Origin: Chlorogloea sp. CCALA 695
GTDB taxonomy: Bacteria; Cyanobacteriota; Cyanobacteriia; Cyanobacteriales; Chroococcidiopsidaceae
DNA length: 64,000 nt
Reading direction: 5' to 3'
NCBI RefSeq assembly: GCF_003003885.1
Contig: NZ_PVWN01000001.1
Location: 186,001-250,000 of the forward strand
Part shown: positions 47,320 through 51,233 of the stretch, in pieces
Numbering within the stretch: the stretch's first letter is position 1
Layout: each line of letters starts with the position of its first letter
Notes under the pieces: model-generated
Told to the model about the DNA's origin: nothing
The model's input: the letters and a program-made list of their open reading frames with translations, nothing else
Database searches by the model: none
Made by a program: the position numbers and the translations under genes

Positions 47320-48213
47320 ATGGCAAATAGTTGGTGGGAACTACAAATTGATTGCGATCCAAGCTTAGAAGAATCGATTTTCTGGCGCTTGGATAAGTTT
47401 GGCTGTCAGGGGACAGCTAGTGAAAATAAGGGCGCTGCAAGTTTAGTAAAGGCTTATTTACCTAGAAATCAAGTCCAACTATTAGATTTGGCAGCGCTGT
47501 CATTGTGGCTGAGGCAAGATGCTTTAATTGCCCAATTGCCTGCACCGTCGCTGCACTGGCAATTGATGGACGAGGAAGACTGGGCGAGTAGCTGGAAAGA
47601 TTACTGGCAACCGGAAGAAATCGGCGAGTATTTTTTGATTAATCCAGCTTGGATAGAAGTACCAGAAAATACAACTCGTTTAGTTCTTACTCTCGATCCG
47701 GGCATGGCTTTCGGTACGGGCAATCATGCCACAACTCAGCTATGTTTGGAATCATTAGAAATGCGAATTGATGAAGATTCCCAAGGCGAAGTATTAGCAG
47801 ACATCGGCTGTGGTTCGGGTATTCTGTCCATTGGGGCGTTGCTACTAGGTGCGAGCAAAGTTTATGCCGTAGATACAGATTTATTAGCGGTGGAATCTAC
47901 TACTAGCAACCGGGAGTTAAATAAAATTGCTCATGATCGCTTGCTTGTAGATAAGGGCAGTGTAGAGCAAGTGCAAAAGCTGCTCCACAACGAACAAGTA
48001 GATGGCATTATGTGTAATATTTTAGCCGAAGTAATCATTCGTCTAATTCCCCAAATAAGCGCACTTTGCAAGCCGACGACTTGGGGGATTTTTAGTGGTG
48101 TATTACTCGACCAAGCCGCAGATGTAGCAGATGCTTTAGAACATAATGGCTGGATTGTTGCTACTATTTGGCGGCGCAAAGAATGGTGTTGCTTTAATGT
48201 CCGGCGCTCTTAA
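47320..48213 (+). CDS. prmA: ribosomal protein L11 methyltransferase
   Basis: The 297-residue product has PrmA features: the N-terminal recognition domain, [35 protein letters not shown] and motif [18 protein letters not shown]. It trimethylates several amino groups of L11. The serA-prmA order is common in cyanobacteria. The gene ends the ordinary region before the TIR locus. Confidence 0.95.
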
Positions 48214-48553
48214 ATCTAGAATTGGGGGCGGATTCACCCCTAAGTAGTAACTAGGGAGTGTGGAAGTGAGATCGCACATATATTATCTAGTAGACAGCGT
48301 ATGAGCGATTTAGAACATGGGTATAAGCCATCATTGTTTTTGATGAAAACAGTAGCCAGAAAGCTTTATGTGAAAAGTGATTTAGAGTTTTATTTGAAAA
48401 ACTTATATGAATTCCCTTTGTCCTAGGAAAAGCATAATCTCTTAATTAAAAGCAGAAAGCAGACTGTACAAAATCTCTGAAAATTGAAAATCATGTTAAC
48501 CTAATGTCACGATGATTGGTTAAAAATTCTAAGAAATCTAAATATTAGCATCT
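48214..48553. other. interval between prmA and the TIR locus
   Basis: About 340 bp, AT-rich in its second half. A 41-codon frame (48301-48426, MSDLEHGYKPSLFLM) has no ribosome-binding site and no recognised relatives, so it may be chance. The region should hold the promoter of the two-gene TIR locus. I see no att site or integrase remnant. Confidence 0.35.
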
Positions 48554-49051
48554 ATGGCAATGCAAGATCCTGCCGTCTTAAAGAAGGTGTCTGTCAGTTT
48601 GCCCTTTGGTATTGGCTCTGCTGAGTGGGAAGCTGATTCTACGGAGCGCAATGCAGCGTGGTCGTTATACGTTGAATTAGTAACTCGCATCGCTGTTCAA
48701 TCGTTAGAAGTTGATCAAGGAACAGTACGCGAAGCTCTGAACTCGCTGTACAGCTTATTTAGTTCTACCCGTGAAATTCTTAGAGAAGCAGGTCCAAAAG
48801 TTGGTGCTTCCCCTAACTCTGTTGGTGGGATTGCTATTGCAGTTCTTAATAAGGGTCTACGACCTTTTCTCTCAGAATGGCATCCTCTTCTTCAAGTCTG
48901 GGAAGCAAAACGCACTCCTGACTTAAGCCCCAAAGAGCATGAGGAAAATTGGGTAAAGGAACCTCAATTAAGAGGTAAACTTTCATTACTACGGGCGGAT
49001 TTAGAAGAGTATGCCAACGCGTTGGCGGAAATTGTTGGGCTTAAGTTGTAG
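48554..49051 (+). CDS. unknown 165-aa helical protein, partner of the TIR-methyltransferase
   Basis: The protein is soluble and mostly helical by composition, with SLPFGIGSAEWEADSTERNA, AAWSLYVELVTRIAVQSLEV, LNSLYSLFSSTREILREAG and WHPLLQVWEAKR. No catalytic motif, signal peptide or membrane segment is visible. I recall similar sequences (GSAEWE, SLYSLFSSTRE) as hypothetical proteins of actinobacteria, but I have not searched. It precedes the TIR gene by 33 bp on the same strand, so the two probably act together, perhaps as sensor or inhibitor. That role is inference. Confidence 0.75.
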   Translation: MAMQDPAVLKKVSVSLPFGIGSAEWEADSTERNAAWSLYVELVTRIAVQSLEVDQGTVREALNSLYSLFSSTREILREAGPKVGASPNSVGGIAIAVLNKGLRPFLSEWHPLLQVWEAKRTPDLSPKEHEENWVKEPQLRGKLSLLRADLEEYANALAEIVGLKL

Positions 49052-49084
49052 TAGTAATTAGCGACCTGAGATCAGGAGTGACTG

Positions 49085-50551
49085 ATGTTCGATGTTTTTC
49101 TGGCACACAACAATGTCGATAAACCCGCAGTTAGAGTTGTTTGCAACAAACTTAGAAGGCTAGGGATTGACCCATGGCTCGATGAAGAGCAGATTCGAGC
49201 AGGAGAAGCGTGGCACGATACACTTCAAAGAGCCATGACTGAAGTTGAGTCAGTAGCTGTTTTTATTGGAACAAATGGATTAGGAAGATGGCAATCGATG
49301 GAATTACCGGTGTTTATCACCCTATATAACGAGGGGCGAAAAATCCCAATTATTCCTGTTCTTTTGCCTGGAGTAAGTCGCATTCCAAATGAACTGGTTT
49401 TTTTTAAACAATTTCAGGCTATGAAATTTGAGAACGATATTGAGGATGAAAATGCAATTAGAAAACTTTATGATGGAATCATCGGAAGAAGATCGAATCA
49501 ACCACCAAAGGTTTTAAAGAGGGGTGAGATATTTGAGAGGTTTACAGACGCAACACTCTATCTGGATCAGACATCTCAAGATCCTATAGACGAGATTCGG
49601 CAACACATAGACAAAAAAACTCTAATACCTCTTAGATATATATACAGCTTTCCATACGGTGCAAACCTCTGGATCTCTTTATGTAACGATCCTAATGAAT
49701 ATAAATATTATGCACACTCAGTAAACTTCATCCGAGAGGAAAAAAGCCGCATAGTGGGAGCAATTGAAGAGATTAATCCAGAAATAATCCGCTCAAATCC
49801 TGACTATATCAGTCTCGGCTGTGGTAATGGGGTAAAAGATAAAATTCTTCTCGAGGAGATCCTAAGCCGAAGTGGAAGCACCCAGCCAAGGTCTTACTAC
49901 TATCCATACGATATTAGTCCTGTTTTGCTTTCTAAAGCGATCAGGAGAGTCTGTGAGTCGGACATCTTAAAACAAAGTATCAGAATCAAGGCAATCGAGG
50001 CAGACTTTCAAAGCTTGCCGTTGTTTGACCCAGTTTATCAATATCGGCAGGAGCCAAATATATTTGCTCTTCTAGGAAATACTCTAGGGAATATGAAAGA
50101 CGATGTGGAATTTCTTCAACAGGTAAGGGAGGCGATGTACCCGGATGATGTACTTCTTGTGGAAGTAAGGCTCTACCAAGACTATGACACCACCGTGCTA
50201 AGTGGTGATCTTCAAAGAATTAAGCAGTTCGATTTTACTCCGCTCCGATGGCTTGGAGTAAATTACGAGTCTGAAAAGCTGAACTACTCAATTAAAGAGA
50301 ACGAGAGCGGTTCAGGAGCCGTAACTCTCACAGCTAATTACCAGAATTTCACGATTGAGGAAGGAGGCAGTGTCAAAATAATTGGCAAGGCAAAACTTGC
50401 GTGTGTTCATCTTTATCAGAAGAATTCCCAGGGAGAAGTATACGGATTGGAAAAGGTCTTTGGGAATAAGGGGTTTAAAATAGAGGCAAAATTTGTTAAT
50501 GAGAGTACAGCATTGTTTGTTTTGACATTAGCTCCTCAATCAGACTCTTAG
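49085..50551 (+). CDS. TIR domain fused to EgtD-like histidine methyltransferase
   Basis: Residues 1-115 are a TIR domain: FDVFLAHNNVDK, GIDPWLDEEQIRAGEAW and W69QSME73, the WxxxE motif holding the catalytic glutamate of NAD-cleaving TIRs. Residues about 150-488 resemble the EgtD/Methyltransf_33 histidine-specific methyltransferase: LGCGNG at 244-249, YDISPVLLSKA, ALLGNTLGNM at 328-337, VLLVEVRL and a C-terminal beta-rich part ending FVLTLAPQS. AGGAG at 49074-49078, six bases before the ATG, fixes the start. TIR domains in bacterial immunity degrade NAD or make ADPR signals. What the methyltransferase adds here is unknown. Confidence 0.85.
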   Translation: MFDVFLAHNNVDKPAVRVVCNKLRRLGIDPWLDEEQIRAGEAWHDTLQRAMTEVESVAVFIGTNGLGRWQSMELPVFITLYNEGRKIPIIPVLLPGVSRIPNELVFFKQFQAMKFENDIEDENAIRKLYDGIIGRRSNQPPKVLKRGEIFERFTDATLYLDQTSQDPIDEIRQHIDKKTLIPLRYIYSFPYGANLWISLCNDPNEYKYYAHSVNFIREEKSRIVGAIEEINPEIIRSNPDYISLGCGNGVKDKILLEEILSRSGSTQPRSYYYPYDISPVLLSKAIRRVCESDILKQSIRIKAIEADFQSLPLFDPVYQYRQEPNIFALLGNTLGNMKDDVEFLQQVREAMYPDDVLLVEVRLYQDYDTTVLSGDLQRIKQFDFTPLRWLGVNYESEKLNYSIKENESGSGAVTLTANYQNFTIEEGGSVKIIGKAKLACVHLYQKNSQGEVYGLEKVFGNKGFKIEAKFVNESTALFVLTLAPQSDS

Positions 50552-50823
50552 GAAACCAATGATTCCTTTGGTGCAACTCTCCCTTAATATAAACGGGTTA
50601 AGGTTAGAAAACTTAGCCTTTCCTTCTACTCAAGACCCTTACCACTTCCTTATGCTTGCAATCATAGAAGTATTTGAACTGCTAACGTGCTGATTTTTGG
50701 TAGAGGCAGATACTTAAGTCAATGCCTGTTGAGGAAAGTATTCCAGTTGAAGCGATTTTAGACAAGCCAAGATGAGCAAAGGTTTCATCTCTATCTTCAC
50801 TTATCAGGTGACTTCACTCTATT

Positions 50824-51141
50824 TTAAAGTAGCGGCTGTAAGCGCCCAATTAAAGCATTAGCTTGTAATACGCCTTCAATGCGATCTACGGGTTTACCTT
50901 GCTTGAAAACAACCAAAGTTGGTAAAGCATGAATATGGTGCGTACTCGCTAGTTGAGGATATTTATCAGTATTAATTTTTACTACCCGCAACCGATCTTT
51001 AAGTTGATTATTTACCTGCTCTAAAATTGGAGCCATCATTTGGCACGGCCCGCACCAATCAGCGTAAAAGTCGACCAATACTGGTAAGTCTGACTGGGCA
51101 ATTAATTCTTCAAAACTGTTGAACTGCTGTTTGGTAGCCAT
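50824..51141 (-). CDS. trxA: thioredoxin
   Basis: The 105-residue protein has the classic WCGPC active site (C30, C33) and the cis-proline in LPTLVVFKQGK. The start is ATG at 51141 (MATKQQFNSF); an upstream TTG would add three residues. The type is close to m-type thioredoxins. It is divergent from fabG. The 270 bp between it and the TIR gene show no gene. Confidence 0.95.
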   Translation of the reverse strand: MATKQQFNSFEELIAQSDLPVLVDFYADWCGPCQMMAPILEQVNNQLKDRLRVVKINTDKYPQLASTHHIHALPTLVVFKQGKPVDRIEGVLQANALIGRLQPLL

Positions 51142-51233
51142 AGAACACAATAGGTTTAATTTTCTATCTCTAATTTTAACGAGTTGATTTTGATGTTTTC
51201 AAAATTGGACACATATTTGCGTAAAATCGTTAA

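Follow-up and report, generated by a model that had tools for sequence, protein, structure and literature searches.

A cyanobacterial TIR gene with an EgtD-like second half and an unnamed small helical partner: a candidate two-gene immune module with exchangeable domains

TIR NADases are important to immunity in bacteria, plants and animals, and the trigger of a given bacterial TIR protein is often unknown. Two-gene TIR-based defence is already known from Thoeris, in which the TIR protein ThsB works with ThsA, and the original prediction for the locus described here had pointed to reports that type II Thoeris TIRs make a histidine-ADPR conjugate, a product that is indeed in print (His-ADPR; excerpt of PMC11364022). 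Proteins that join TIR to GUN4 are known as well. GUN4 is described in an excerpt of PMC7159879 as a sensor that binds tetrapyrroles and is found together with TIR in a single chain, and GUN4, FGS and TIR are listed in an excerpt of PMC8195603 among the domains of cyanobacterial conflict systems, namely VMAP and related ternary systems. Another TIR-like NADase defence is Swarozyc, which carries DUF4062 and is triggered by the phage portal according to an excerpt of PMC13174449.

The present locus lies in a window of 64,000 nucleotides of Chlorogloea sp. CCALA 695 DNA, the whole stretch that was analysed, and consists of a gene for a 165-aa protein, referred to below as the partner, and a gene for a TIR protein with an EgtD-like second half (Table 1); the strand opposite the latter frame is rich in stops. 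It resembles Thoeris in that a TIR gene stands with a second gene. Membership of Thoeris was nevertheless rejected: upstream lies the partner, which gives no match in Pfam, PADLOC or NCBIfam at E <= 1, and then prmA, the downstream neighbour is a thioredoxin-like ORF, no ThsA was recognised beside the TIR gene, and PADLOC ThsB (16.8 bits) as well as the best PADLOC match, SAVED_TIR (21.3 bits), cover part of the TIR only. As regards SPARTA, the C-terminal half of the TIR protein matches Methyltransf_33, with no APAZ among the Pfam matches listed, and no Argonaute-like ORF was noticed when the ORFs between 40 and 60 kb were read. With the VMAP and ternary conflict systems it has the domain pool in common, to judge from the excerpts of PMC7159879 and PMC8195603, but the partner does not appear in these excerpts, and no MoxR or vWA gene was noticed on reading the same ORFs, four of the 29 listed being also scanned with Pfam. 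Likeness to Swarozyc would lie in TIR-like NADase defence (excerpt of PMC13174449), whereas DUF4062 gave no Pfam match on the window protein. No paper on the partner or on a TIR-EgtD fusion was recognised in the open-access collection searched, and the pair looks like a fresh variation on two-gene TIR defence, its partner belonging to a family that has no name yet. On reading the ORF list, no further gene of known defence type was noticed next to the pair, Rfam gave no RNA element at gathering level between 47000 and 52500, promoter and terminator scans stayed at chance level, and the repeats were unremarkable.

Table 1. Features of the locus, with positions counted from the first nucleotide of the window
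Feature	Position	Strand	Basis
TIR/EgtD-like methyltransferase fusion protein, 488 aa	49085..50551	+	ORF and Pfam
TIR domain, roughly residues 1-142; contains W69 and E73	49085..49510	+	Pfam, fold, E73 conservation
Methyltransf_33 SAM domain, residues 178-366, with LGCGNG, YPYDIS and LLGNTLGN	49616..50182	+	Pfam, residue check, profile match to EgtD structures
C-terminal region, residues 367-488, aligning with EgtD only loosely; Glu282 and Ser284 equivalents not kept	50183..50548	+	
165-aa partner protein, LNxxLRPFxxxWH motif, predicted four-helix bundle	48554..49051	+	
Insertion with both genes, missing from related genomes	48238..50818	.	Flank comparison
prmA, flanking, outside the system	47320..48213	+	Pfam PrmA 295.2 bits; match in 19/19 family genomes
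Thioredoxin-like gene (WCGPC), flanking, outside the system	50824..51150	-	Named by reading the motif

The N-terminal half of the fusion protein carries a TIR domain with a WxxxE motif, as had been predicted. TIR_2 matches residues 4-128 with 64.3 bits against a cut-off of 28 (Pfam), W69 and E73 stand where they had been placed, and AlphaFold2 returns a confident TIR for residues 1-130, with a mean pLDDT of 77-97 in ten-residue blocks. The best match of this model in the PDB is AbTir (7uxu; Z 17.6, rmsd 1.9, 130 residues), followed among solved structures by the SPARTA TIR-APAZ protein (8ifl, Z 17.0) and by SARM1 (9mw2, Z 16.9). In an alignment of 31 TIRs, made up of the window TIR and 30 picked from the 60 partner-linked TIRs introduced below, E73 is invariant and W69 is common but not invariant. 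E73 is the WxxxE glutamate, which is catalytic in known TIRs, and on the strength of sequence and modelled fold the window TIR is likely to be an NADase. Fold and glutamate are common to the window TIR and to AbTir, SPARTA TIR-APAZ and SARM1, its best structural matches, while the attached domain and the partner gene differ.

Linkage between a TIR gene and the partner extends well beyond the window. A scan of genome contigs for the partner gave 242 pattern matches, 214 of them relatives, and the best 80 of these correspond to 79 loci with partner identities of 65-79%, more divergent copies lying outside the count. The loci include near-duplicates, such as L145 and L146 with 99.9% identity, and by title all are cyanobacterial except for one Omnitrophota MAG contig. 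Among 388 genomes of the order, 50 gave a partner match, in some cases to fragments with stops. The 79 loci hold 84 partner ORFs, of which 60 have a same-strand TIR ORF within -150 to +250 bp; the TIR ORF lies downstream in 51 of the 84, upstream in nine and on the opposite strand only in three, and nine of the remaining 21 have one within about 1 kb on either strand. Up to 250 bp from the partner there are 0.77 TIR ORFs per kb (64 ORFs), as against 0.005 per kb at 3.5-7 kb (two ORFs). As the TIR profile behind these counts was built from matches to the window TIR, very divergent TIRs may have been missed, and the presence of TIR_2 in 60 of the 60 proteins is given by construction, since they were chosen by having a TIR match.

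In 37 of the 51 downstream cases the TIR ORF starts 5-25 bases past the last sense codon of the partner; in the window the partner ORF ends 33 bases ahead of it. An antitoxin gene usually precedes its toxin gene, and this order and spacing are what a toxin-antitoxin pair would display, in which the partner would be the inhibitor of the TIR protein and the second domains would decide on its targeting or its release. The nine partners that follow their TIR gene do not fit well with this explanation, which we regard as possible but unlikely, and the fusions of the partner described further below also bear on it. The Omnitrophota contig is short, carries a partner 67% identical to that of the window (L177:877-1371) and gave no TIR match; this copy could reflect transfer or contamination.

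The partner itself offers few clues to its family. Its predicted structure consists of a bundle of four helices and, with less certainty, a β-hairpin at the N-terminus; the mean pLDDT is 82 overall, with low confidence in the hairpin part, where residues 1-30 stand at 48, 58 and 66 in ten-residue blocks. Foldseek found nothing at E <= 0.001, and comparison with known structures by VIA gave generic helical bundles only, the best at Z 10.2, which is too low for a helical bundle to name a family. There was no PHROG match, and a search of 50,697 phage records at E <= 1e-5 did not turn up the partner either. Two alignments were prepared, one (A1) with 39 rows from which fused, chimeric and truncated copies are excluded, the other (A5) with the window and 56 of the 79 loci, L188 having a stop in the matched stretch and 22 others being omitted. 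A profile comparison of two further alignments of the study, A3 and A2, carries no information, as they have rows in common. Across 12 diverse copies, P104, W109 and H110 of the LNxxLRPFxxxWH motif are invariant and N99, R103 and F105 nearly so. The spacing R103-x6-H110 resembles the HEPN Rx4-6H motif; Pfam lists no HEPN family at E <= 1 for the window partner and four other copies, and the toxin-antitoxin entry 7bxo (HEPN-MNT) appears in the Foldseek results for the partner model as two chains at ranks 30 and 41 with E > 1. The partner may be an adaptor, an inhibitor or a signal receptor.

While the partner and the TIR remain constant, the other half of the TIR protein changes. Among the Pfam matches listed for the 60 partner-linked TIR proteins, at least 31 carry GUN4 and at least five WD40. 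Home-built profiles assign 31 to GUN4, five to WD40, two to FGE and two to TPR, and find four with TIR only and one with a short second TIR match, 15 of the 60 falling outside every home-built profile type. On these profile matches, the second domain is GUN4, WD40, TPR or FGE-sulfatase in 40 of the 60 and a predicted SAM-binding, EgtD-like domain in the window. The order of domains is not fixed, since the TIR is C-terminal in four of the five WD40 proteins. A set of 28 proteins from order genomes, picked from 40 fetched regions and overlapping heavily with the 60, gives a similar range (15 GUN4, four WD40, three FGE-sulfatase, three TPR, one EAD10, one double TIR and one untyped); one WD40 type, at L089, also matches Ras. 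At L170:5471-6892 the TIR protein lies upstream of the partner and has two similar repeats that are EVE-like by reading.

Direct evidence for exchange comes from one pair of Microcystis genomes, in which the second half of the TIR protein has been replaced as a unit. A stretch of 1210 bp that takes in the partner gene and the greater part of the TIR is 98.7% identical in DNA between the two loci; at about residue 122 the likeness breaks off, one protein continuing into GUN4 and the other into TPR, and beyond this point the proteins are unrelated. The boundary is sharp (L169:6660-7869 against L178:4123-5332), and farther along the DNA matches again, partly in rearranged form. A tree of the window TIR and 59 of the 60 partner TIRs implies 16 changes of domain type, a number that is indicative only, as the tree was made by a quick method, has long branches, lumps untyped domains as one type and was not accompanied by shuffles.

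That the second domain is exchanged while partner and TIR stay constant suggests one shared effector that can be given different inputs. The explanation that we prefer, and that we judge about as likely to be right as wrong, is a mobile, modular TIR immune module of two genes, in which gene 1 would encode the small helical partner and gene 2 a TIR, probably an NADase, with a replaceable second domain. This second domain would most likely recognise the trigger, which could be a component of the invader or else a small molecule, for example SAM or a methyl acceptor, and the partner would belong to the same complex as an adaptor or regulator; the TIR would then be released and act on NAD, and the infected cell would be stopped. 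With a partner that is conserved and a second domain that changes, even where two Microcystis loci are otherwise nearly identical, nature would supply a range of inputs on one TIR chassis, which makes the question of what the second domain detects testable by domain swaps. The EgtD-like version would bring a methyltransferase fold into the group of domains with a possible role in TIR control. Against this explanation stand the partner ORFs that have no TIR ORF within 250 bp or one on the opposite strand only, the variable order of domains and the absence of any further defence gene noticed next to the pair. The same pattern, a conserved partner beside a TIR protein whose other half changes, also speaks for the toxin-antitoxin explanation given above.

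For the EgtD-like half, profile comparisons support membership of the EgtD fold family but not histidine specificity. Methyltransf_33 matches residues 178-366 with 63.0 bits against a cut-off of 23, over positions 13-182 of the 304 in the profile, and the two motifs by which a methyltransferase had been predicted, LGCGNG (residues 244-249) and LGNTLGN (within LLGNTLGN, residues 329-336), are both present. A profile of the window domain and seven cyanobacterial relatives, made without typical EgtDs, matches EgtD structures (7scf, E 3.5e-8). The assignment rests on sequence profiles, because the AlphaFold2 model, made without homologues, has a pLDDT mostly below 50 in this half and neither supports nor refutes it. 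The SAM domain is common to EgtD and the window protein, and in an alignment with the EgtD-type protein of the same genome the glycines of motif I, the acid of YPYDIS and the equivalents of Tyr39 and Asn166 are kept. By contrast, the window protein lies far below the NCBIfam equivalog cut-off for EgtD (51.9 against 290.9 bits), and EgtD Tyr206 falls in a gap, Glu282 is replaced by Ala and Ser284 by Val, with an ambiguous equivalent of Tyr56, although at about 20% identity single positions near the C-terminus of this alignment are uncertain. Tyr206, Glu282 and Ser284 are among the residues named at the histidine site of Mycobacterium tuberculosis EgtD (excerpt of PMC8593015). A separate Methyltransf_33 gene in the same genome scores 398.3 bits.

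Histidine is an unlikely substrate because the equivalents of Tyr206, Glu282 and Ser284 are lost. The original prediction had put forward that the protein makes or modifies a histidine-linked nucleotide signal; the EgtD score and the lost histidine-site residues rule this out as the leading idea, and the partner, a gene on which the original prediction had not touched, is not ThsA. With the residues on the SAM side intact, the methyltransferase half may still be an active enzyme. It would then act on an amino acid, a nucleotide or a protein, giving two activities in one chain or a modified ADPR signal, an arrangement that we consider improbable. The kept SAM-side positions speak for it, as do the cyanobacterial EgtD-like relatives that are fused to other domains or stand alone; the loss of the histidine site speaks against it, and so does the position of the domain, which in related proteins is held by domains mostly not known as enzymes. 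The second half in the window is more likely to sense a ligand or to methylate something other than histidine than to make His-ADPR. To judge from its position, it is most likely an input domain whose binding partner would be SAM, a methyl acceptor or a protein, as the preferred modular scheme would have it. The window methyltransferase half recurs in none of the other ORFs of two sets of partner loci at E <= 0.01, and as no other partner-linked ORF carries it, this role is argued from position. The alternative that had originally been offered, a methyltransferase fold acting as a sensor that controls the TIR, has fared better than the histidine signal: the variety of attached domains and the one cassette exchange support it indirectly, while the intact SAM-side residues leave room for an active enzyme.

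Fusion of this particular TIR to this particular domain is found in the window only, as far as the searches reach. In its own genome the whole protein has a single match, itself; 19 pattern matches in genome contigs include no relative of the whole protein; eight plasmid records were hit, none over 80% of the query; and in 388 order genomes, 109 of which matched the protein (at most four candidates scored per genome), none of the matches listed spans both halves. The methyltransferase profile, used at E <= 1e-8 against 388 class genomes, a draw that overlaps with the former, matched 25 genomes. Three of these besides the window exceed 500 bits and are profile members or near twins of members, the rest staying below 70 bits, and no other listed open frame is longer than 407 aa, against 489 for the window. 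These results would suit an accidental fusion in one strain without immune function, which is hardly credible, however, given that both frames are intact, that the motifs of both domains are kept and that other TIR-like/EgtD-like fusions exist.

These other fusions are found at L063, from the same genus, and at L065 and L066, from cyanobacteria, where the EgtD-like relative is joined to HTH and a weak TIR. TIR_2 scores 20.2, 28.4 and 19.4 bits, respectively, against the cut-off of 28, so that one of the three passes, and Pfam names the HTH in L065 and L066 only, weakly. A fourth relative is fused to CHAT and sits among caspase-domain, CHAT-TPR and WD40 genes (L064:2160-10825). Stand-alone relatives are present at L067, L068, L069 and L071, L070 being a shorter reading. 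In three of them (L067:5391-7159, L068:4622-6399 and L071:4640-6408) the gene is followed by one for a protein of 202-219 aa with a hydrophobic N-terminus, for which Pfam gave no match over cut-off in L067 and L068, the two scanned.

Mobility of the module is suggested by the window itself, where both genes form a strain-specific insertion. In three related genomes prmA and the thioredoxin-like gene face each other without the pair, with 34 bases between the flanking blocks in G216, 39 in G174 and 119 in G186. The same gap holds a NucS_C-like ORF in G243, and on a short contig of G237 prmA runs into a tyrosine recombinase (L217:1546-2493, L216:4143-4802). The gap between prmA and the thioredoxin-like gene is possibly an insertion hot spot, judging from these flanks.

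Partner homologues also occur on plasmids and viral contigs. The plasmid search returned nine records, of which seven were covered by annotated regions, the other two being further S. longwoodensis plasmids. A Calothrix plasmid also carries a copy; the partner protein there is annotated as a GUN4 protein, whereas the home-built profiles gave it no type. In Streptomyces, the S. cynarae homologue runs into the start of a TIR-annotated gene that has WD40 matches, and that of S. longwoodensis has, about 1.6 kb upstream and beyond a transposase, a TIR gene with weak WD40 matches; both homologues are 37% identical to the partner and have a hydrophobic N-terminal stretch. The Photobacterium toruni homologue (31%) stands 13 bases ahead of a TIR gene, and no TIR is annotated near the one in Ruegeria. 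According to annotation and profile matches, the partner adjoins TIR proteins in at least three bacterial phyla.

Sinorhizobium and Mesorhizobium present a different arrangement, in which the N-terminal part of a patatin-like protein gives a partial partner match (query positions 21-110 and 20-114) and TIR-annotated genes lie round about; the patatin scores are 25.3 bits, below the cut-off of 27.7, and 35.8 bits, and one TIR-annotated gene of the Mesorhizobium cluster is ThsB_TIR (75.6 bits). Partner fusions of this kind favour a signalling role. Taken with the partners that follow their TIR gene, the patatin-like fusions and the hydrophobic N-terminal stretches, which some cyanobacterial copies also carry on an N-terminal extension, are more easily explained by a signalling adaptor than by a protein that only inhibits, and hence weigh against toxin-antitoxin.

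Proximity of distant homologues to ThsB_TIR genes raises a further, Thoeris-like explanation, in which the 165-aa domain would be the receptor for an ADPR-type signal made by the TIR and would gate an effector. Besides the rhizobial patatin-like proteins, one of two IMG/VR contigs with a partner copy would agree with this, as its partner has a ThsB_TIR gene on one side and, on the other, a gene for an SNase protein with hydrophobic stretches (L258), and W109 and H110, with R103, could form a ligand site. The window partner, on the other hand, has neither a predicted membrane stretch nor an effector domain, so that no output is visible; the rhizobial matches cover part of the domain only; and the fold searches point to no more specific class than helical bundles. 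We hold this explanation to be distinctly unlikely. The modular scheme can also be pushed further, to a 165-aa domain that is a new cross-phylum TIR partner, whether adaptor or signal receptor, and defines a not yet described two-gene family with plug-in sensors, the EgtD-like plug-in standing guard over SAM or methylation status, with NAD loss as the answer to an invader that breaks down SAM or changes methylation; put so strongly, the proposal is speculative and improbable.

On the second IMG/VR contig (L257) the partner lies 87 bases ahead of a protein with a C-terminal TIR. The Mesorhizobium plasmid cluster (L255:2425-8327) combines TIR-annotated genes, an Nmad2 gene and the partner-like domain fused to patatin, and is perhaps a larger signalling system.
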